From a virus, in the IMG/VR virus record IMGVR_UViG_3300010354_000584, positions 1 through 25,223 of that record: a DNA stretch of 25,223 nt; one strand, 5' to 3'. Positions 201 to 25,223 of this stretch are shown here, in pieces (within the stretch, counting starts at the first letter, position 1; the number at the start of each line of letters is the position of its first letter). A program made the translations under genes and the position numbers. The notes beneath the pieces are model-generated. The model was not told the origin of the DNA. It worked only from the letters and a program-made list of their open reading frames with translations, and ran no database searches.

Positions 201-515
201 TCAATCACTCCACGATAATCTTTCTGGCTGATATCTTTGTGTGTTTTTAATCTTTAAAGAAGAACTTGTTACTGGGTAAATGTTATGAACTATTGCCCCC
301 GGATATTCGTCCTGAAGTTGCTCTGCTAGTTCATTTTTGCTCATCATTTTTCCCTCAACTTCCATACGATAAATTCTTCCTTCCCAGACAACATCTGCAA
401 AAAAAGATTCGCCAACAGAGTTTGATTCTGGTTCTGAACTATTGATATAAAGATTTCCGTTGAAATCTCCTGCTATATTTACACTTTCAGAAATAAACTG
501 TTTAAATGATTTCAT
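201..515 (-). CDS. Small protein with T4-type capsid-targeting leader (putative head-internal protein)
   Basis: The product has 104 residues and opens with MKSFKQFISE. That closely parallels the T4 internal-protein capsid-targeting sequence (MKTYQEFIAE type), which directs proteins into the prohead core and is cut by the gp21 protease after an I/L-x-E site; here the site would be I8-S9-E10, followed by S11. The rest is a small, probably beta-rich domain with a conserved-looking FFADVVWEGRIYRMEVEGK stretch, an EYPGAIVHNIYPV stretch and an aromatic C-terminus (RYQPERLSW). No membrane segment is visible. I recall similar short proteins near the terminase genes of cyanomyophages, usually unannotated. 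The ATG is one base after the TAA of the mosaic gene (TAAGATG), implying coupled translation. What is seen is the leader; packaging into the head and cleavage are inferred. Confidence 0.85.
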   Translation of the reverse strand: MKSFKQFISESVNIAGDFNGNLYINSSEPESNSVGESFFADVVWEGRIYRMEVEGKMMSKNELAEQLQDEYPGAIVHNIYPVTSSSLKIKNTQRYQPERLSWSD

Positions 516-516
516 C

Positions 517-2142
517 TTAGTTACAGTTCCAACGGCGGAGGGCTTTGTTAATTCTTGAATCCGGATCTCTTGCAGTTTTTGCTGATGTGAGTTTATCTTT
601 CATTCCGGACATACGACTACAAAAAGCATCTTGTCTATCTGCTCTTTTTCCGGTTGGATTTTTTTCAGTTACTGCAGTTTGAAGTTTTGATCCGGGATTT
701 TCCCGACGATATGCTTTAACGGCAGCAGGACTTAATCCATCAGTTTTATCTTTTCGATTAACTTTCTGCCAATCTTCCATAAAGTGGGTGAAAGTTTTAA
801 GATTTCTTGATTCTGATAAACCTTTCATTTTCTCTGGTTTAATCAGATCAATAAATTCAATATATGGATTTCCATCTGCATCTTCAATAGATACGTTTTC
901 TTTTTTAACGCAACGATTGTAAGTTTTTCCGAATAATTTTTGGGTTCCTACTTTTTTATGTCCCTTCCAGCACTTCATTTCCTTCATTTCTCCACTATCA
1001 ACATAATCTGCTGCAGAATCTAGGTAATCTGCTGCTTTAGTAATTTTAGATTGAACCCAAGCTTCAACATTACCTTCACCCTTTCCCATTTTTTTTCTCA
1101 ATCTCTTGGCGGCAGAAATAATCGTTGAGATTTCAGATCTAGCCATCGAATACTCATGATCCATAGATTCTGGCATATTTCCTGGATGTGGAGTATTTGG
1201 GGTGTAACCATCAATGTTTCCTAATTTAGTTGGAACGGAAAATAGATCCCAGTATTTTGGTCCATACTTACACTCACTCCTAGATTCATTTTTTTTACAT
1301 TTAGGACAGTATCTGTGTAGTTCATCATGTATTGGTGAATCCCAATCGTAACCAAGTGATCCACTATGAGTACTTTCTGACTTTGTTCCCCAATTTGCAG
1401 CACCCTTTTGACGACATTTGACCAATGCTCCGGAGGCATAAGCACTAGGCCAAACATCATATCTTGCCTTTACTTTATGGTAACAAGCATCTTTTTTCCC
1501 ACTACCTTTTCCTTTTTTATCAGATTCTTCGTTCATTTTTTTCTTTTTTCCTTGACAGTGAGCTCTCTGAGAAAATCCTTTCGGATTATCACAATCTATG
1601 GATTTTTTATATTTATTTGACCATTCTTCTTTAAAAGTTTTTTTTGGTTTATCTGTAGAAACATAAGTTGGTTTTGCTGCTCCAGTTTTTTGTTGTTGTC
1701 CAGGGTCTGCCGCTTTTTTTCTTCTTGCCGCTGATAACCTTTCGGACTTTGACATACTTGCTCTTTTTGATGAAGAAACGCATTTAGGAACTCCTTCACC
1801 GGGTTCATCACTAGCGCAAGTTCCGCCAGTTACAACATTTACCCAACCTGGTTTCCCATCTTTTGATTTACTGTTAAACCATTTATGTAAATTACCTTCG
1901 GACACATCTTTAAATTTTTTATGATGTTTTTTGGCGTCCGATTCCATTTTTTTCAGGCGAGTATAATAATCTGGAATTTCATCCAAATGTTGGAGGGCAA
2001 TGTCAGTCGCCAAATCTTTATCCCTAGTGTGTTCATGCTCAATAGGAATTCCCATTTCGAGTTGATTCTTCACAAAAGAAACCTCAAGACGGTGTTTCTT
2101 TGCAATTTGCTCAACAGTTTTATGGGATTTTATCTTTTGCAC
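517..2142 (-). CDS. Mosaic multi-domain basic protein (DUF5661, DUF5872 and DUF6321-type modules)
   Basis: This 541-residue protein is a chain of short modules, and no enzymatic function is recognised. Residues 3-72 resemble DUF5661 (HKTVEQIAKKH, EHEHT, YYTRLKKME). Residues 84-166 carry KDGKPGWVNVVTGGTCASDE and a Lys/Arg-rich SKSERLSAARRKK segment. Residues 181-202 hold SIDCDNPKGFSQRAHC, and 217-252 a DUF5872-like module (ACYHKVKARYDVWPSAYASG). Residues 276-291 hold a His-Cys cluster (H276, C279, C282, C291). Residues 328-382 form a helical AWVQSKITKAADYLDS module. Residues 391-413 are CWKGHKKVGTQKLFGKTYNR plus C411, and 447-541 are DUF6321-like (NRKDKTDGLSPAAVKAYRRE to the end). All Cys-bearing modules except the cluster contain exactly two cysteines. 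Start is a GTG at 2140-2142; gp16's TAA is in the same frame five codons before it, so no earlier ATG is possible. Possible role: head-internal or injected DNA-binding protein (inference). Confidence 0.88.
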   Translation of the reverse strand: MQKIKSHKTVEQIAKKHRLEVSFVKNQLEMGIPIEHEHTRDKDLATDIALQHLDEIPDYYTRLKKMESDAKKHHKKFKDVSEGNLHKWFNSKSKDGKPGWVNVVTGGTCASDEPGEGVPKCVSSSKRASMSKSERLSAARRKKAADPGQQQKTGAAKPTYVSTDKPKKTFKEEWSNKYKKSIDCDNPKGFSQRAHCQGKKKKMNEESDKKGKGSGKKDACYHKVKARYDVWPSAYASGALVKCRQKGAANWGTKSESTHSGSLGYDWDSPIHDELHRYCPKCKKNESRSECKYGPKYWDLFSVPTKLGNIDGYTPNTPHPGNMPESMDHEYSMARSEISTIISAAKRLRKKMGKGEGNVEAWVQSKITKAADYLDSAADYVDSGEMKEMKCWKGHKKVGTQKLFGKTYNRCVKKENVSIEDADGNPYIEFIDLIKPEKMKGLSESRNLKTFTHFMEDWQKVNRKDKTDGLSPAAVKAYRRENPGSKLQTAVTEKNPTGKRADRQDAFCSRMSGMKDKLTSAKTARDPDSRINKALRRWNCN

Positions 2143-2154
2143 TACTATTAGATA

Positions 2155-2565
2155 TTACTCTTTATTATTTAGAAAACCTTGCTTTAGAAGTTTTGAAAGA
2201 TCTGAGGTTGATCCAACAAATACTGCGTTATTTGTAACATTATTTGTTGTCTTTACAGATTCTTCCTCAACATCTTTAAGTTTCTTTTGTAAATCAATTA
2301 ACTTATCAGTCACGTCTCCAACACTTTTGATTAACTGTCCAGCAACTTCATATGCTCTAGGACTGGAACTTTCATCTGCCAGTTCCATTATTCCATTAAT
2401 TGCTTCTTGTCCCTTTTCAATCAAAGAATATAAATTCGCACGGGTATATTCATAGTCTTTTTTTAGATCATTCTTTTCATCTCTAACTATATCTAAAGAT
2501 TTATCGGGAATTGATTGAATGATGCTACTATCCACATCAATAGTTTCGTCTACATTTTCACTCAT
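2155..2565 (-). CDS. 16: Terminase small subunit (gp16-like)
   Basis: The product has 136 residues. In T4, gp16 binds the DNA end, regulates the gp17 motor-nuclease and starts headful packaging. The centre (about residues 28-105) is strongly helical and charged (EYTRANLYSLIEKGQEAING, then GQLIKSVGDVTDKLIDLQKK), as expected for the coiled-coil oligomerisation core of T-even small terminases. The C-terminal tail (NAVFVGSTSDLSKLLKQG) resembles the tail of cyanomyophage gp16 as I remember it. It directly follows gp15, the T4 order 13-14-15-16. T4 gp16 is somewhat longer (about 164 residues). Nineteen bases separate it from gp15, with a weak GAG about 7 bases before the ATG. The large subunit gp17 is not in the window; a mosaic gene follows instead. 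Confidence 0.85.
   Translation of the reverse strand: MSENVDETIDVDSSIIQSIPDKSLDIVRDEKNDLKKDYEYTRANLYSLIEKGQEAINGIMELADESSSPRAYEVAGQLIKSVGDVTDKLIDLQKKLKDVEEESVKTTNNVTNNAVFVGSTSDLSKLLKQGFLNNKE
2166..2172 (-). promoter_or_regulatory. Possible late-promoter-like element before the mosaic gene (CTAAATA)
   Basis: The minus strand reads CTAAATA at the end of gp16, 23 bases before the GTG of the mosaic gene. It differs from TATAAATA in its first two bases and overlaps coding sequence, so it may be chance. Listed only because the spacing to the next gene resembles the two better promoters. Confidence 0.25.
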
Positions 2566-15632: not shown

Positions 15633-18600
15633 TTAAATAGTAAATTGTTTTCTCAATGACCCATTATCTCTAAGACCATATCCCTTTCTTTGTATGGTTG
15701 GGAAGGTTGATAATCCAGAGTCCACTGTTAGGCCAGTTACACCTATGGAAATATTTGTTAGTCTACTTTCTATATTTGAAAGCATTCCCCAAGAGAAATT
15801 ACCTACTGGATTTTCTATGGTTCCATAAGTAGATATTCCAGTAATATTGGAATTTGATTTAATATTTGCAGTTATTGCCGCATTTGGACCATCTTTTACA
15901 ATGCTGTGAATATAGTAAATATTATCAACATATTCGGTACCAACATTAACTACAGAAGAATCAGAAGAATCAATAGAAGTCAATCCAGATCCAACATTTG
16001 TGTTAAACACATAAATCGGATATCCATTATTTAAATCAAAGAATGTTAATGCGCTAGTTTTTCTTCTTACGAAGAATTTTATTGCCAATGGGTTTCCATT
16101 TGTACCACTAGTAGTAGTAATTCCTGTAATAATTCCCGAGAATCCCCTAGATATTTGAGTTAAACTGCTTGGACGAACTAGTTTTATTTTTTCATAATTA
16201 ACTTCAGGTAGAGGAATAATAGTTTTTGGTGGGTTACTTTGTAAATATCCAAACCCTGGATTGTTAATAGTATATCCAGTAATAGAACCATTAGTAATAG
16301 TAACGCTAGCTTCTGCAGTAGTTCCTATACCAACACCAATAGATTTTGGTGCAGAAATTTTAATTTGTAACGGTGAAGATTGAGTGTAACCATTTCCAGA
16401 ATCTACTATCGTTAAAGAACTGATTGTTCCTGCAGCAGATACATTGGTAGTTATTTTCGCCTCACTTGGATTTGTTCCACTTACAATTAATACATCATAT
16501 TCATTAATTTTAACATTAAAATCATTTTCTTCATAATCAAATAATTCTACGTTATCCACAAAAATAGCAGAACTATTTTCATTAAAATCTTTTATAATTT
16601 TTGCAGTTGGATATACTTGAGATTCTATAGAATCTCTAGTTTTGTATACATAATCTCCATTAATTAATAGATCCTCTTTTTGTTTTTGCCAATCAAAATA
16701 TCTATAATTGTCTGGATCAATTCCTGGACCAGAATAAAGATTAGTTTGAATGACATCTGATTGTACAATATCTTCAACTATTCTTGGATCTTGATAATCA
16801 GTATTTTCTGAGTAAGTAGTTCCATTAACCTGTACCGTATCTCCAATCTTTATAGTTTCAAATATATTGACAAAAGTACTATCTTCATTTCTTGTACCTC
16901 TATAGAAAAATATAGATACATTTGCTGACGGTTTTGGTGGTTCAGTGAAGATAAAGGATGATCCACCTTCAAACTGGTATGCATCTCCTGGTTCTTGGAG
17001 AACTCCATTTATAAAGATTACTAATACTGAGTTTAAATCAATATCTGGACCATTTTTCTCATCTTTCTGGAAACTTAACAAGTTTCCATTATAATATAGT
17101 GGAAATCTCTTTCTGTTGCCATCCTGTAAATTTTTGATAGAATCAATATAATCTAGTTCTCCAAATTGCCAAGAAGTAAATGAATCTGAGAATGTATCCA
17201 AAACAGTTAAGTTAAATTCATTAATAGGAGAATTTAATCTTCTATCGGTAACTAATCCAACAGGTTTTATGACATCACCAATTTGGAATCCATAACCTGC
17301 TCTTGCAATTCTAAAATTAGTAACTTGGAAGTATGTGGATCCTATTCCGGTTGTGGCAAGACCGCCAACTTCGACACTTACTAATAAATTTTTTCCAGTT
17401 TCTGAGGTATTTCCTATTCCTCTTCTAAAAACTCCTACGGTAGGTAAATTTTCATAAGATGGTTCAGAGACCAATATAGTTGGTTTGACATATCCACTAC
17501 CAGGAGTAACAACATTAAACGATAGAGTTCCACCTGCCCCAACATTGGCAGTTATAACTGCCTCTGTCCCTGCGTGCAGAGGATCTGTAATGCCGATGGA
17601 AACTGGAGACCTATATCCAGATCCAATTATGTCTGTCGTGCCTAGACCAACCGATACAACCGCTCCTGTGGAGTTGTTCAAAACTGCTGTTACAGATGCT
17701 CCGACAAGGGGAGCATATCCAAGACCTGGAGTTGATCCGAGTGAAACAATTAAACCACCTCTAGGTAGTTGATTTTGATTAACATCAAAATCTGAGTAAA
17801 TAACCTGTCCATTTGAGGAGGTTATACCACTAAACATAACGCTGGTAATACCTGCATTAGATTCATACGTATAATTATTTCCAATATTATTCTTCGTAGA
17901 TGGAGTTTGGAATATACCGTTAATAAAGAGAACTCCACTTCCAGTTTCAATTCCTGTTGTGTTTATTCCTTGAACTGTCAGTGTGTAAGAAGATCCAAGA
18001 CCAGTAAATTGATCGGATATATCATCATATAGTAAGTTGTTAGTATAATTATTGCGGAGGAAAATTCTTCCACTGAAAGATGAGGTGGGGTAAGGTAAAT
18101 TACTAAAGTCTCTTCTTTCTCTTGCACTTCCTCTTGGAGGTTGTGTGAAGTATATTTTACTTGATTTTAAATTAAAAGATCCTCTGTAAACTCTGACTTG
18201 AGTTCCATCGGTGTGTGTAGTTGCTACCGTTCCAACATGTCCTCGGTTAACATAAACTATATTGTATGAACCAGATTCTGTAATTGGTCCAGTGGAGGTT
18301 GTTCCAAAACCTGAGGATATAACCTGAACATATTCGTCATCGATTTTAAGCAGGTCTCCAGAACTAATTGAAGATATTCCACTTAGTGCAAAATAGTTAG
18401 TTGTAACTCCTATTTGGCCACCATTATTGGCGAGGAGGAAAAATAGTGGAGTATAAGATAGTGGTTTTTGAACAACTCCATCAATAGAAATTACAGATTT
18501 TTCAAATTGCTTATACATTTCTAATGAATGGGCATTACCTTCTCCAGTAGAAGTAAATGTAACATATATCCCAGCAAGAGAATAGTCTCTCCTTGTGGAT

Positions 18601-21600
18601 AGTCTAAATTGATCATCATCTATTTTAATTGCATATACTTCCTGAGGAAGTATATTAGTTACAATTCCTACAGAATTTGCAGTCGATCCTATTCCAACTG
18701 AAGACTCTCCTACCCCAACGAAAGTAGATTTTGCTTCATATATTAATCTTTCACCAGTATTAAAGAAGTGGTCTTTAATTGATATTATTCCAGTTTCTTT
18801 ATCTAAAATCGAAGGATCACTTGGATTAAAAACTTTCCTAAAAATTGGAATTCCTTTATATTTGAGATCAAAGTCGACTTTATTTGCTCTTGGGCCATTT
18901 AATCCATCATATGCTGCTAATTTAACACTCTCTAAAACATTTCCATATTTTAAAGTGCTGTTAGTTCCCAAAGATTCATTTTCAAAATCATTGAAAGTGT
19001 ATAATAACTGATTATAACTTTGTATTGTAACTATACCAACAATTCCATTATCTGGATAGAACGATATTTCTGTATATTCTCCAGAATATTTTGCACCAAA
19101 TGTTCCTATACCTGTTTCTGAATTTGATGAGATAAATGGATACTGAGTTGTGTATAAGTCATATCCATCTTGAAGACACATTAATTGATGTATGGAACTA
19201 GTTTTTCCACAAGAAACTCTAATTAAAGATTTTGTTCCTGTTATTTCATTTGTTTTAAATTTAAATACTGTTGATATTCCTGAAGATACCACATAATTTG
19301 ACTCAAAACGTGCAGATCTTTCACTTCCTTCTGGTTGTCCTGCATAATTAAATCTATAAGTTCCGATTCCAGATGCTGTAGAACCAAAACCAACTATATT
19401 TGCATTAACTAAAATTTTAGTGTTTATATTATTAGTTACTTTGAGTTTTAAAACCCCAGATTCTAACACTGAATCAAAAGTTGCAATATAATTTGTTGAT
19501 AATCCAACAGTATCATCAAAATAATACTCTGCAAGATAAGTATTAGTTTTATCCGTATCAACAACAACCTCAACAAAGTTGAAATTAAATCTTACCGTAT
19601 CAAAAACAAATATATTAGCAACTAAACCGTTATTTTTGGTAATTGGGAAAGATATTAAATTGGAAGTTGTTCCTATTCCGACAGATGTACTTACTCCTAT
19701 TAAATCGATACATCCTATTGATTCTGTATTAATTCCTATTTTTTTAGGATCTAAGTTGTCAAAATAAGTTTGGACATACTTAATATCGTAATCAGTATCA
19801 AATGGATCCTGTGGAGTAAATCTAAGAGTCTTTGTGTTATAATCATCAACTTCTCCTGTAATTTCACCCAATCTATTTTCGGAAGTTTTTAAGGAAGTTT
19901 TTTCAAGAGAGAAAATATTTTTATCATAGAATAAAACAACATTCTCACTTAACTGATAAGTGTTATTAGTTATATCATTTATTTGTACAATGTACTTAGA
20001 GAATAAAGTATCTTCCAAGTATGTGTAAACATTTGTAAATAAATCTCTGTCATTAGATTTATTTGAGAATTTCCCACTTACATCATCTACTTTTAAAACT
20101 CTATTAGATGAACAACTAATATAATCAGTTAATGTTAAATTATTAAACTTCAAGTATCTAGATTTATTACCCAAAACATCATAGTCTACTGAATATGAAT
20201 AGTTTTTGTTAATATCGACACTAGATTCTGCTACAACATCCAATATAATGGATTGACTTGAAGTTGCTCCATAAGAAACAAAACTACCTTTAGATTCAAT
20301 TTGAGTATCTGCAAAGTTTTTTAATCCAGAAATATGAACCAGATTATTAACTGGATTTATAAATTCACTGTATTCTATAGGACTCTTAATACTATAAGAT
20401 AGATTCTGATAGTAATCATTATCCTGAACAACCTGGAATAATTCATTTAGTTTTCCAACCTCATTAGACCATCCCAATGAAGATGTATTTGAATAATTAA
20501 TTTCAAATTTGGATTCGTTAAGTATAATATTGACTACAGTGGATAATGCTCCAGATTCTTTTCCTCTTAAAATATTACCACTTTTTATTTTATATAAATC
20601 TAAACCAGAAACTCTGACATATGCATCTTTACTTTCTTCTACAATTAAATCAATTTCTATAAATCCATTCCCAAAGTTACAGTAGAGACTTTCTCCCTTT
20701 CTAAATTTAGAGAAAACCTGATTTGCAACAACAGATGGATAATTTTTCTTATTTACAATAATTGCATACCCTAACTGACTTGTTTTTGCTATGCCAGGAT
20801 CTGTAGTTACGCCCGATAAATTATATTCTAAAACCGCTGGGTTTGTGTTTAAAAATGAGGTAACTTTAAAGAAATTATATCCATAGTCTGTAGAATTAAG
20901 TCCATCACCAAAAGTGCTGTCTTTTTGGATATTTTCTACGAATATTTCATCACCAACTTCAAATGGTGGATTTATAAATCCAGAAATAATAGGAGTAACC
21001 AATGTACAAGTTACAATTCCACTAGAAGAACTTTGTACGGAATTTATTCCTATACCGTTTGAATTATTAACAAAAACAACCTGGTGATTTATTGATTCTA
21101 GTCCTTTTATTTCAGAATCTAAGTTTATTTTACTAATAGATCCAGATTTAATTTCACATGATAATCCATCACTGTTGACAATTTCATCTGTATATGGATT
21201 TTTCAGTAGAACTGATGGACTTGAAGAATACCCAAATCCACCATCAGTTATTTCAAAATCTTTTATTTCTGTTGAATTACTAGTAAATATAATTGATGGG
21301 ATAGAAGCTTCAGGTCTTAATGTATTATCTGAAGGATAATCAAATCCTTGATCTAATATTAAGTATTCATTAACTCCACCAATGCTTGAAGTATTGATTA
21401 TAATACTAGCATCTCTACCCAAATCTGAGTTAGATCCATCAAAAATAGGCAATTCATTATATTTAAATTGAGTATTTGTAATATTTAAATTATAAATTCC
21501 TCCTTTAGCGGTTTTTGAACTAGTTGAGTAATTTAGAATATCGCAATTCTCATTAGAGTAGAATAATTTATTTGGTACTGAAGGAATATTAAATACAAAT

Positions 21601-24600
21601 TCTGTAGATCCTATTCCAGATACAGTAAAAGATCCATTACAAGAGTTACTGACAAATCTAATAGATGCAGAATGAATAACATCGCTATCAATTTGGATTG
21701 GATATCCATCTTTAATCAAATTATAATAAATTTTTTCTGGAATATTTGAAGAATATTTTAAACTATATGATGCAGTAGAAGCTACACCTGGAGTTCCAAC
21801 GCCAATAAAGTTTACTTCTGTTGATAATCCAACGGAATTAAATTCTTTGTTAAACTCAGAATCATAAAAAAGTTTTAACTCATATCCAACTAAACTAGAA
21901 TCTGAAACATCAAAAAGTACAGTATTATTTCTTTCCGTTACTATTTCTGGATTAACTAAACTTATTTTTTGATAAGACCCACCTGTCGATAAAAACTTTA
22001 TAACATTTGGATATTGTCTTTGTGTATCATAGTATGTTTCGCAAAGTTGAATATTATTATCATCAATTTTATACACAAAATAACCATTAGATGATATTCC
22101 ACTTATTGGTGTATCATCATATGAATAAAAAACTTTATTTCCAGTTTCAAAACTATGACCCTCTAAATTTATACAATTTTTAGATAAAATGACATTACTG
22201 GAACTAAAATTAGTAGTATTTACTAATAAGGACTTTGATAATGGATCATAACTAATTTTAACCGAAGAAGATGTTCCTATACCAACAGTATCATTTGATG
22301 CTAATTTAAGATCAATTATGTCTCCAGAACTTAACCCGTGATCCTCTATCGTGTAAATTTTTCCTACATTTTTTTGAATCTCACATTTTATTTGTGGATA
22401 GTTAGTTTCAATAGAATAATCATATTCTATCGGTATTGGTCCAAGTAAAAACAATCCATTAGACGTAAAAGCACTATCAAGAGATGTAGTTATTCCTATC
22501 AAGTCTTTCGATTTATTAATAATATAAACATTTTCTTCTAATGTTGATCCATTTAATAAAGTAAAAGATGCTGAACTTGGTGTATTTGAAACTATTATCG
22601 GAGATCTAGTCGCTACTTTTCTCAAAATAGCAGAATCTCCAGTTTTGAATGGATGATTCTCTATACGAATAGACTGAGTTGGAACTGATATTGTCTTAGT
22701 GACATCACCAATAGTTTGTTGAAGATCTATTCCTATTCCCGAAGTTGTTCCAATCCCTGCAGATTGTGATGGATTGAAATAGATTTTATTATTAATTTTA
22801 GAATTAAAATAATTGGTATTTGATTGAATTGTAAATCTATTAGGTAAAACTGTAAGTAAATCTGATGCTGTGTGTGCATATCCAACATCAGATCTCTTAA
22901 CTCTTAAAATTGATCCTTGATCAAATATGTTTAAAACAGATAGTAATTCATTCCCTATACTCAAAGTACTTCCAACTGAAACTGTAGGTGGTATTTTAGA
23001 AACATAAATGTCTTCAACTTTTTGTGGAGTGACGTTTGATGTCATATCACTCAACAGAGTAATTTGTTCAACTCTTAAATTGCATATCTTTTCTCCATTC
23101 AAGGAAGACAAATAAGTGCCAATTCCAGTTAATGTAATCCTATCGTAGTCTAATAAGTTCACATAAGGTTCATAATAACCAGTAATATAATTTGAAGACC
23201 ATTCAAGAACAACATTTTCATATTTTTGCGTAGAGATCTCTAAACTAGAAATATCTTTACCTTCCAATTTAGAAACAGTGCTAGTTAGTTGGCCACTTTC
23301 ACTATCGGAAACTTTAAAATAACAAATGTCTCCAACTCTATAATCTGTACCCGGATTAATAATGCTAAATGAACTTACTGTACCTTTTGTTGTAGACTTA
23401 ACTTCTGTTAATTGCTTAGATATTTCACTAGACTCTGTATAAAATTCATAATCAGAATTTTCTTCATTTATTTGATATGGGAAGGTATTTCTTATCAAAT
23501 TGGAGTTATTAAAGTCAAAACTTTGATCTAAACTCCAATTTTCTTCAATTTTTTTGGATCTATAATATGGTCCTATGAAGTAAGGATAAGTAGATTTAAA
23601 TGACGATGTTTCTTCATCTGGAATAGATGAAACAAAGTATGCATAAATTCCATCGGGAAATTCTGGAGTCCTACAATATCTTCCATTATACTGATCTAAA
23701 TCGCCTGATCCTGCAAATACATAATCTTCGGCAAAAAATCCAGCAGGAAACTCATAAGGTCTATTATAAATTCCCGCATAAGATAAAATATATCCAGAAG
23801 AAAGTTGTTTTATTGCTGAGTTTTTATCATAAGGATCAGAATATCCATATGGACCATATATTGGATTTCCATCATATGCCCATCCAATTATTGGTGAATG
23901 CTTATTACCATCATCATTCAATTGTTCCGCCAAAGTAGGCGTATATGCCGTTAAAGAATATTGTAAATTATTCAAAGAATTATTAAAATATTCATCTCCA
24001 AACCGATAATGATTATCAAGAGACAAAAATCTTATTCTGGGATTTAATATTGCATCACTTCCAGATGATATTACACTTATGCTGGTAGTTTCTTGTACAT
24101 ATCCATAACCAGGTTTTATCACAATAACACTTTTTAACTTGTTATTTACAATTACTGGGCGTAAAATACATCCAGTGCCTTCACCATTTATTTTTAATTT
24201 TGGAGTAGAATAATAATATTGTCCCGCAGAAAGAACATTTACCTTTACTATCTTTCCATCTTTAACAAAAGGAGATACTTGTGCGTATTCTCCTGTTTTT
24301 ATTTTTACAATAGGTTTTTTTTCAAAATTTAAAACATTAGATCCATAAGAAGTTCCATTTTCATATAAATTTACGTACTTTATTGGTCCAGTAACAACAG
24401 GAATCGCTACTATGTTACTGGCATTAGTAAAACTAGAACCATATGAAACAGTTACATTAACTTCAATCTGAGGATATCTGAAGATATGATAGTCAGTTCC
24501 GATCGAAGACAATTCAACATATTTCTTTCTTTCAAAGTTTTCTTTGTTTAAATTGAACTTGTCAGTTCCAGCATCACATACTTTAAAATAATCATCATCT

Positions 24601-25223
24601 ATTTTTCTTACAAAATAATAGTTTGATGTGGATAATCCAGAAATTTGTGTTCCGGTATGTTCATATGTAACAATGTCCCCATCATTGAAATGGTGAGATT
24701 TGGAAAATATATTATTAAAGCTTGTTGATATTCCTGAAGATTTTACATATATTTTATGATTAGAGTATCCTTCACCAGGATTTAGAACTTTTATTTCAGA
24801 TATAACTTTTTTTTCTGTTGTTCTAAACTTATGAATTCCCCCACTAACTTCTGTACTAAAACCTATGGTATTGATTCCCGAACTATAATCATTAAAAGAT
24901 GAATATAGTTTTACTGTTCTTGGATTAACTACTTGGGCATAATAATATGATCCATTACTCAATGTATTTGAAGTTGCGTTTGATCCTAAAAAAGTTCCAA
25001 TGCCAACTTCAGTATTTCCATTACTATCATAAATGATTTTATCACCACTGCTAAAATAGTGATTAGAAATAAAAGTTATAGTCTCACCAGTGATTGGATC
25101 TATTCCACCATTATCTGTCAAAAATCTAGCATCAAATTCAACTTCTCTATATCTTTTTTCGATAACTGGACTAATTATTGCATTTTTTCCATTTCCTCCA
25201 GTAATAACTACAGATACTACACC
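15633..25223 (-). CDS. Giant baseplate-region virion protein (gp7 position), 5' partial
   Basis: The frame is open from the window edge to TAA at 15633-15635, giving at least 3196 residues. A TTG at 25119-25121 is not the start, since reading continues through it for 34 more codons (GVVSVVITGGNGKN and so on). The gene precedes gp8, the place of T4 gene 7 (1032 residues), but residue-level similarity to gp7 is not evident. The protein is a chain of beta modules: H-x-F-x-x-G-D units with a YxFVxxIDDD strand (at least six), GxGYxxxP units (about ten), three RGxxGTxxxHxxG units, a VFINGVLQEP unit near 17000 and a degenerate YHYH-like domain near 23600-23900. The C-terminus (FSWGMLSNIE, GLSTFPTIQRKGYGLRDNGS) matches the closing signature I recall from cyanomyophage giant structural proteins. 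A baseplate-periphery role is inferred. Confidence 0.88.
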   Translation of the reverse strand, partial: GVVSVVITGGNGKNAIISPVIEKRYREVEFDARFLTDNGGIDPITGETITFISNHYFSSGDKIIYDSNGNTEVGIGTFLGSNATSNTLSNGSYYYAQVVNPRTVKLYSSFNDYSSGINTIGFSTEVSGGIHKFRTTEKKVISEIKVLNPGEGYSNHKIYVKSSGISTSFNNIFSKSHHFNDGDIVTYEHTGTQISGLSTSNYYFVRKIDDDYFKVCDAGTDKFNLNKENFERKKYVELSSIGTDYHIFRYPQIEVNVTVSYGSSFTNASNIVAIPVVTGPIKYVNLYENGTSYGSNVLNFEKKPIVKIKTGEYAQVSPFVKDGKIVKVNVLSAGQYYYSTPKLKINGEGTGCILRPVIVNNKLKSVIVIKPGYGYVQETTSISVISSGSDAILNPRIRFLSLDNHYRFGDEYFNNSLNNLQYSLTAYTPTLAEQLNDDGNKHSPIIGWAYDGNPIYGPYGYSDPYDKNSAIKQLSSGYILSYAGIYNRPYEFPAGFFAEDYVFAGSGDLDQYNGRYCRTPEFPDGIYAYFVSSIPDEETSSFKSTYPYFIGPYYRSKKIEENWSLDQSFDFNNSNLIRNTFPYQINEENSDYEFYTESSEISKQLTEVKSTTKGTVSSFSIINPGTDYRVGDICYFKVSDSESGQLTSTVSKLEGKDISSLEISTQKYENVVLEWSSNYITGYYEPYVNLLDYDRITLTGIGTYLSSLNGEKICNLRVEQITLLSDMTSNVTPQKVEDIYVSKIPPTVSVGSTLSIGNELLSVLNIFDQGSILRVKRSDVGYAHTASDLLTVLPNRFTIQSNTNYFNSKINNKIYFNPSQSAGIGTTSGIGIDLQQTIGDVTKTISVPTQSIRIENHPFKTGDSAILRKVATRSPIIVSNTPSSASFTLLNGSTLEENVYIINKSKDLIGITTSLDSAFTSNGLFLLGPIPIEYDYSIETNYPQIKCEIQKNVGKIYTIEDHGLSSGDIIDLKLASNDTVGIGTSSSVKISYDPLSKSLLVNTTNFSSSNVILSKNCINLEGHSFETGNKVFYSYDDTPISGISSNGYFVYKIDDNNIQLCETYYDTQRQYPNVIKFLSTGGSYQKISLVNPEIVTERNNTVLFDVSDSSLVGYELKLFYDSEFNKEFNSVGLSTEVNFIGVGTPGVASTASYSLKYSSNIPEKIYYNLIKDGYPIQIDSDVIHSASIRFVSNSCNGSFTVSGIGSTEFVFNIPSVPNKLFYSNENCDILNYSTSSKTAKGGIYNLNITNTQFKYNELPIFDGSNSDLGRDASIIINTSSIGGVNEYLILDQGFDYPSDNTLRPEASIPSIIFTSNSTEIKDFEITDGGFGYSSSPSVLLKNPYTDEIVNSDGLSCEIKSGSISKINLDSEIKGLESINHQVVFVNNSNGIGINSVQSSSSGIVTCTLVTPIISGFINPPFEVGDEIFVENIQKDSTFGDGLNSTDYGYNFFKVTSFLNTNPAVLEYNLSGVTTDPGIAKTSQLGYAIIVNKKNYPSVVANQVFSKFRKGESLYCNFGNGFIEIDLIVEESKDAYVRVSGLDLYKIKSGNILRGKESGALSTVVNIILNESKFEINYSNTSSLGWSNEVGKLNELFQVVQDNDYYQNLSYSIKSPIEYSEFINPVNNLVHISGLKNFADTQIESKGSFVSYGATSSQSIILDVVAESSVDINKNYSYSVDYDVLGNKSRYLKFNNLTLTDYISCSSNRVLKVDDVSGKFSNKSNDRDLFTNVYTYLEDTLFSKYIVQINDITNNTYQLSENVVLFYDKNIFSLEKTSLKTSENRLGEITGEVDDYNTKTLRFTPQDPFDTDYDIKYVQTYFDNLDPKKIGINTESIGCIDLIGVSTSVGIGTTSNLISFPITKNNGLVANIFVFDTVRFNFNFVEVVVDTDKTNTYLAEYYFDDTVGLSTNYIATFDSVLESGVLKLKVTNNINTKILVNANIVGFGSTASGIGTYRFNYAGQPEGSERSARFESNYVVSSGISTVFKFKTNEITGTKSLIRVSCGKTSSIHQLMCLQDGYDLYTTQYPFISSNSETGIGTFGAKYSGEYTEISFYPDNGIVGIVTIQSYNQLLYTFNDFENESLGTNSTLKYGNVLESVKLAAYDGLNGPRANKVDFDLKYKGIPIFRKVFNPSDPSILDKETGIISIKDHFFNTGERLIYEAKSTFVGVGESSVGIGSTANSVGIVTNILPQEVYAIKIDDDQFRLSTRRDYSLAGIYVTFTSTGEGNAHSLEMYKQFEKSVISIDGVVQKPLSYTPLFFLLANNGGQIGVTTNYFALSGISSISSGDLLKIDDEYVQVISSGFGTTSTGPITESGSYNIVYVNRGHVGTVATTHTDGTQVRVYRGSFNLKSSKIYFTQPPRGSARERRDFSNLPYPTSSFSGRIFLRNNYTNNLLYDDISDQFTGLGSSYTLTVQGINTTGIETGSGVLFINGIFQTPSTKNNIGNNYTYESNAGITSVMFSGITSSNGQVIYSDFDVNQNQLPRGGLIVSLGSTPGLGYAPLVGASVTAVLNNSTGAVVSVGLGTTDIIGSGYRSPVSIGITDPLHAGTEAVITANVGAGGTLSFNVVTPGSGYVKPTILVSEPSYENLPTVGVFRRGIGNTSETGKNLLVSVEVGGLATTGIGSTYFQVTNFRIARAGYGFQIGDVIKPVGLVTDRRLNSPINEFNLTVLDTFSDSFTSWQFGELDYIDSIKNLQDGNRKRFPLYYNGNLLSFQKDEKNGPDIDLNSVLVIFINGVLQEPGDAYQFEGGSSFIFTEPPKPSANVSIFFYRGTRNEDSTFVNIFETIKIGDTVQVNGTTYSENTDYQDPRIVEDIVQSDVIQTNLYSGPGIDPDNYRYFDWQKQKEDLLINGDYVYKTRDSIESQVYPTAKIIKDFNENSSAIFVDNVELFDYEENDFNVKINEYDVLIVSGTNPSEAKITTNVSAAGTISSLTIVDSGNGYTQSSPLQIKISAPKSIGVGIGTTAEASVTITNGSITGYTINNPGFGYLQSNPPKTIIPLPEVNYEKIKLVRPSSLTQISRGFSGIITGITTTSGTNGNPLAIKFFVRRKTSALTFFDLNNGYPIYVFNTNVGSGLTSIDSSDSSVVNVGTEYVDNIYYIHSIVKDGPNAAITANIKSNSNITGISTYGTIENPVGNFSWGMLSNIESRLTNISIGVTGLTVDSGLSTFPTIQRKGYGLRDNGSLRKQFTI
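23590..23900 (-). other. YHYH-like domain within the giant gp7-position protein
   Basis: The segment reads HSPIIGWAYDGNPIYGPYGY, then YNGRYCRTPEFPDGIYAYFV, then TYPYFIGPYY. Order and spacing follow the YHYH family (DGFPIYGPYG, then G..H/R.T.DG.YHYH, then YPY..G). The name-giving YHYH is YAYF here, so both histidines are missing. Metal or ligand binding like that of classical family members is therefore uncertain. Confidence 0.75.

Follow-up and report, generated by a model that had tools for sequence, protein, structure and literature searches.

The locus and its modules

The stretch of DNA considered here (the window, 25,223 nucleotides of the IMG/VR virus record IMGVR_UViG_3300010354_000584) carries clustered virion genes from a T4-like phage, with gp16, gp15, gp14, gp13 and gp8 recognised by profile. 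Judging by its homologues, nearly all of which lie in Synechococcus and Prochlorococcus phages, it is cyanophage DNA. Our subject is the open reading frame (ORF) at 517-2142 on the minus strand, directly downstream of gp16, which a reading of the letters alone, made before this analysis (the sequence-only reading), had described as a mosaic of seven or more short modules. The mosaic is real, and by profile it consists of nine modules in series, M1 to M8 and M10, each matching with an E-value between 1e-16 and 1e-49; the profiles were built in this analysis and include the window protein itself. The features of the ORF and of its two neighbours are as follows, a slash marking the proposed cut in each joint and the cut expected in a capsid targeting sequence (CTS):

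517 to 2142, minus strand: mosaic ORF, 541 amino acids, GTG start, isoelectric point 9.6, net charge +39, 13 Cys
1906 to 2133, minus strand: M1, DUF5661 (PF18905), by Pfam and own profile
1894 to 1905, minus strand: joint VSE/G between M1 and M2, gp21-type, candidate cleavage site
1651 to 1887, minus strand: M2, TGGTCAS..KCVSS..KPTYVSTD, basic, 2 Cys, by own profile
1621 to 1635, minus strand: joint TFKEE/W preceding M3 (FKEEW), candidate cleavage site
1537 to 1623, minus strand: M3, SIDC..RAHC, in other phages a stand-alone gene behind MKTFKQFQE, by own profile
1522 to 1536, minus strand: joint MNEE/S between M3 and M4, candidate cleavage site
1375 to 1521, minus strand: M4, KKDACY..VWPSAYASGALVKCR, its signature also given as PSAYASGALVKC, the most conserved module, by own profile
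1231 to 1314, minus strand: M5, RYCPKC..EC (CPxC..C), zinc-ribbon-like half with putative metal binding, by profile and AlphaFold
988 to 1161, minus strand: M6, helical, AWVQSKITKAADY, by profile and AlphaFold
904 to 975, minus strand: M7, KCWKGHKK..NRCVK (CWxGYKK..C), predicted beta hairpin, 2 Cys, by profile and AlphaFold
823 to 894, minus strand: M8, VSIEDADGN..IDLIKPE, acidic, by own profile
808 to 819, minus strand: joint LSE/S following M8, candidate cleavage site
772 to 801, minus strand: internal CTS-like LKTFTHFMED directly ahead of DUF6321, Asp at position 10
523 to 771, minus strand: M10, DUF6321 (PF19846), by Pfam and own profile
2155 to 2565, minus strand: gp16, terminase small subunit, upstream neighbour of the mosaic ORF (PF11053, 7e-9; phrog_445, 2e-52)
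201 to 515, minus strand: next gene, N0 (phrog_1742, 104 amino acids), whose domain family is module M11 of other mosaics
486 to 515, minus strand: T4-type CTS MKSFKQFISE/S opening N0

In the Pfam scan of the mosaic protein, DUF5661 (residues 11-68, 1e-14, 55 bits against a curated cut-off of 27) and DUF6321 (residues 464-538, 6e-14, 52.8 bits against 28.5) both pass, as the sequence-only reading had surmised, and besides these no family matched at E<=1. This includes DUF5872, a label given by the same reading, which is therefore unsupported. No enzyme family appeared in Pfam, NCBIfam or PADLOC scans of the protein, in agreement with the earlier statement that no enzyme motif explains it, and the literature found on DUF5661, DUF6321 and DUF5872 is algal-virus work only. 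A likeness to Csy4 at residues 372-424 (PDB sequence match, E 0.02) spans M6 to M8, leaves the first Cys of M7 unmatched and was set aside as chance. Most modules have a net charge of +5 to +16, with M6, M8 and a DUF192 cassette neutral or acidic. A positive charge suits DNA binding, which would be the most likely job of the basic peptides.

Shuffling among relatives

Homologues were found in 518 phage records and 378 IMG/VR stretches. IMG/VR and phage genomes together gave 158 distinct ORFs with several modules, in which 80 different orders occur. This count is inflated by contig ends that truncate some of the ORFs, but 61 close relatives alone still show about 20 orders. M3 may come first, lie internally or form a separate gene; M7 sits at several places, and M8 on either side of it. 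In the mosaic of phage S-SM2, M6 lies ahead of M2 and an entire DUF192 domain stands between modules, and in S-CREM2 the array is divided over two distant genes, gp137 (M11 and DUF6321) and gp160 (M2, M7 and M4). Among 118 loci M3 is fused in 30, stand-alone in 20 and both in none (p 0.0015, uncorrected for relatedness).

Nor is a single continuous fold predicted for the protein: the AlphaFold model, whose input alignment held the window and IMG/VR loci only, has a mean predicted local distance difference test score (pLDDT) of 51 and a predicted template modelling score of 0.22, with local islands, e.g., M1, M2, M5 and M7, separated by low-confidence linkers. Compared with PDB structures by fold, the whole model gave no match at E<0.001, and the defensin-like matches of the M7 hairpin had E>4. 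Numerous residues are invariant over 35 aligned relatives, which, with the many homologues and the strong profile matches, marks the mosaic as no product of chance. The shuffled architecture claimed by the sequence-only reading is thus fully supported, the same architecture everywhere and one continuous predicted fold being the opposite of what was found.

Other proteins show similar or simpler arrangements. The T7-like cyanophage P-SCSP1c (L262, 8959-9213) has a lone 84-amino-acid DUF6321 gene directly after its major capsid gene, of which we found no mention in the P-SCSP1u cryo-EM paper. In S-SCSM1, the virion proteins gp089 (L088, 36357-37328) and gp280 with gp279 (40061-41835) resemble chains of short modules, and gp280 includes the SNWR linker motif known from the mosaics.

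Stand-alone modules and capsid targeting sequences

In T4, targeting by the CTS depends on residues 4 and 7 and processing on residues 8 and 10, and an Asp at position 10 allows targeting without processing (PMC9026906); T4 ipII and ipIII open with MKTYQEFIAE. Three modules, M3, N0/M11 and a type represented by S-CREM2 gp136, also occur as stand-alone genes that open with such segments. The mosaic gene is not isolated but forms one class with the next gene at 201-515. In N0, M1, K2, F4, F7 and E10 are invariant in 43 aligned sequences, although 42 of its relatives were picked by M[KR]x[FYL]xxF, such that the invariance of K2, F4 and F7 is partly selection; an opening of this form is shared by 52 of 54 unselected ORFs. 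The body of N0 corresponds to M11 within mosaics. This link rests on a match to the mosaic of locus L045 (E 2e-4), on profiles and on matches by structure to proteins from S-CAM9, P-HM1 and S-SCSM1 that contain DUF6321. BLAST run directly between window 201-515 and the mosaic of S-SM2 gave no significant match.

Stand-alone M3 ORFs open with CTS-like segments in 22 of 23 cases, the short ones being like MKTFKQFQEDWSNKY; positions 8 and 10 depart from the T4 rule, and these proteins may thus be targeted without standard processing. S-CREM2 gp136 opens with MQTFSMFFSE/D, and its body matches a cassette in the mosaics of L012 and L031 (E 5.5e-6).

In five ORFs a CTS is fused to a segment like the N-terminus of mature gp23, at the expected gp23 cut (GMIAE/QPTNAVGNGGYT in S-SM2 gp23, MKTLKQFLKE/TPTNSVGNGGYT in a small ORF). 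A segment of this kind is seen in small ORFs of virion clusters in L084 (7680-8108), L101, L117, L145, L168 and L264 (25343-26236, gp160), in five of them directly behind a CTS. It may serve to anchor cargo to the shell.

The stand-alone genes bear on the idea that the mosaic is a tail-fibre or surface adaptor protein, variable for host range. Tail-fibre genes do adjoin the homologue in S-SM2 and S-SCSM1, and the region between gp16 and gp17 has been described as a hot spot of variation (PMC3037559). However, what the modules recur behind are capsid targeting sequences, not tail signals, and they are small and basic, with no receptor-binding fold seen in them, which makes this explanation highly improbable.

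Joints and a motif like that of prohead-protease sites

T4 gp21 cleaves after Glu, and processing of the IPIII propeptide needs residues 8 and 10, i.e., hydrophobic-x-Glu (PMC9026906). The joints of the mosaics look like prohead protease sites of this type. Over 706 distinct linkers we counted the motif [ILVM]xE[AGSTQ] 359 times, whereas 110 (standard deviation 10) are expected when each linker is shuffled, giving a z-score of 25; the z-scores are descriptive, given the relatedness of the sequences and our use of our own profiles to set linker borders. Its density is 15.9 per 1000 residues in linkers and 2.4 in module cores. Counting one protein per architecture, 202 motifs are found versus 67 (standard deviation 8) after shuffling, and with altered spacing between the hydrophobic residue and Glu, z falls to 1.5 and 6.

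This spacing matters for an alternative in which the protein would be an uncut, DNA-condensing head protein, a string of beads whose basic modules neutralise DNA and whose Glu-containing linkers are plain flexible spacers. Its isoelectric point, its charge and that of most modules, the folded islands between low-confidence linkers and the presence of relatives in virions would all agree with this. Yet plain spacers leave the fixed hydrophobic-x-Glu spacing unexplained, as well as the stand-alone modules that bear a CTS, and we hold this explanation to be unlikely.

Virion presence and the CTS as a proposed predictor of cargo

Relatives of the mosaic are known to be present in virions from published proteomics and annotation. 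The virion list of S-CREM2 includes both mosaic halves, gp137 (4 peptides) and gp160 (7 peptides) (PMC10665884, Table 3), and the S-SCSM1 homologue gp029 is annotated "virion protein" (PMC9602691), a label that we take as detection, because 47 genes carry it and 45 proteins were reported by mass spectrometry (PMC9602691).

We fixed a CTS motif on S-SCSM1 before applying it to S-CREM2. In S-SCSM1 it finds NMNAT, which is virion-detected (PMC9602691), gp030 and one likely chance ORF. In the whole S-CREM2 genome it picks out four gene starts, those of a cytidylyltransferase, an APH-like kinase, a SAM hydrolase and a 78-amino-acid protein, and all four are among the 52 virion proteins encoded by its 219 genes (hypergeometric p 0.003, or 0.013 counting ATG starts only). 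A widened motif, set after some S-CREM2 N-termini had been seen, gives five of five.

The SAM hydrolase, the APH-like kinase and the 78-amino-acid virion protein, each with its CTS at the N-terminus, are encoded on the minus strand of one S-CREM2 region (L265, 3837-13331), together with a Cas9-like virion protein that has a CTS motif at residue 19. NMNAT of S-SCSM1 (L088, 38819-40048), a virion protein of unexplained packaging, opens with MKSFLQFLKE/A, and this CTS is kept in 47 of 48 relatives (L088, L213-L260), the lone exception being truncated at its 5' end. After the CTS, gp12 and gp14 of L265 and NMNAT of L088 have an apparent small region in common, e.g., AKKLNLKSDGHGGWYDSRGEFVAKT, which is perhaps a shared packaging or ejection tag.

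Detection in mature virions also bears on the possibility that the mosaic is a component of the prohead core or scaffold, like T4 gp67 or gp68, that is chopped by gp21 and mostly lost from the head. The many gp21-type joints would fit this, and S-SCSM1 gp22 shows the same enrichment of the joint motif. The modules, however, differ from a disposable scaffold in their strong conservation, their paired Cys and their partial folding; peptides persist in mature virions (PMC10665884), and some arrays have a whole DUF192 domain inserted. A scaffold role is thus quite improbable.

Discussion

The junction sites, the stand-alone modules with a CTS and the virion detection of relatives lead us to favour, with moderate confidence, a reading of the mosaic as a polyprotein of head-internal cargo, made by T4-like cyanophages and processed by gp21. 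Since the joints resemble sites of the head-maturation protease, the modules are probably packed along with the DNA as cargo. The sequences show the shuffling, the joint motif and the kinship with stand-alone genes that bear a CTS, and published proteomics shows relatives in virions; the location inside the head, the cleavage at the joints, the ejection and what each peptide does are inferred, as follows. Small modules, mostly basic, often Cys-paired and recombining as a set, would be made as one chain and taken into the prohead core, perhaps guided by the internal LKTFTHFMED or by binding to another core protein. gp21 would then cut after the [ILVM]-x-E joints to give separate peptides. The basic, Cys-paired ones would remain with the DNA in the head, and on infection all or part of them would leave with it. 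The interpretation in the sequence-only reading, which had offered three guesses, a delivered multi-effector, a DNA-condensing internal protein or a scaffold, is partly supported: the evidence favours a processed cargo array inside the head, and its freed pieces may condense DNA or act in the host.

Several points weigh against the cargo polyprotein. No cleavage has been observed at the joints, the motif is missing at some of them ([ILVM]xE is present in 81%), and the z-scores are of the descriptive kind mentioned above. The lone S-SCSM1 homologue is unexceptional for the joint motif (z 2.3, rank 14/188); enrichment in a single protein is too weak alone, such that a family-level test was needed. 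The mosaic has no N-terminal CTS, its chain opening with MQKIKSHKTVEQI; its internal LKTFTHFMED carries the Asp that blocks processing in T4, and a full internal motif of this kind is found in only 7 linker sequences. The gp030 gene of S-SCSM1, which has a CTS and is an N0 homologue, carries no virion label. Finally, gp21, gp22 and gp23 of this phage cannot be read, because the record is a viral fragment of 25,223 bases, and the phage's own gp21 thus falls outside it. At the far end of the window, a frame of at least 3196 amino acids (15633-25223), upstream of gp8, continues past the last base.

The nearest parallels are the T4 internal proteins IPI, IPII and IPIII, likewise small, basic virion proteins that differ between phages, with which the stand-alone relatives, including window 201-515, share the N-terminal CTS (F/Y4, F7, hydrophobic 8, E10). 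Outside the CTS no sequence similarity was seen. In T4 each such gene supplies a single cargo with its own CTS, whereas the mosaic has many cargo-like modules per chain, in 80 orders and without an N-terminal CTS, and hence we do not file it as a T4-type internal head protein and say only that it would work like one. The T4 core proteins gp67, gp68 and gp22 are alike in that gp21 is expected to cut each chain at several sites, but their fragments are largely lost, whereas the conserved Cys-paired modules of the mosaic family are kept and its relatives are detected in virions. The ejection proteins of phiKZ, 201phi2-1 and SPN3US are also head-internal and processed by a prohead protease after Glu (PMC9026906, PMC5694885); they lose one N-terminal propeptide, whereas the cuts proposed here separate modules. 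DUF5661, DUF6321, PHROGs 727, 3477 and 12753 and the cyanophage cluster T4-GC 119 are direct homologues or contained domains, and all are labels without an assigned function. None of them tells of shuffled modules, of a motif at the joints or of kinship with CTS genes.

A further and rather speculative possibility, which we consider unlikely though worth stating, is a combinatorial effector cassette, in which the head protease would release many different peptides that go into the cyanobacterial cell alongside the DNA and immediately target host machinery, the module content being reshuffled between phages in response to host defences. N0/M11 would be an example, as a Gp2-fold binder of RNA polymerase. 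The N0 domain is modelled with a pLDDT of about 90 over residues 41-80, and Foldseek matches it to T7 Gp2 (4lk0_M) with a probability of 0.99 and a TM-score of 0.71 by target length, at a non-significant E of 0.30; a weak likeness to the RNA polymerase-interacting protein YkzG falls in the same range (E 0.2-0.3 for both). We treat these model-based likenesses as a lead only.

Many cyanophage virion proteins have no known route or role, and the authors of a cyanophage virion study could not separate packaged enzymes from contaminants (PMC10665884). Here the T4 capsid targeting code offers a sequence rule that predicts cyanophage cargo, and the shuffled array, if our favoured reading is true, would be a way to fill a single head with numerous small proteins by means of a polyprotein. 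Existing mass spectrometry data would allow a test of both claims.
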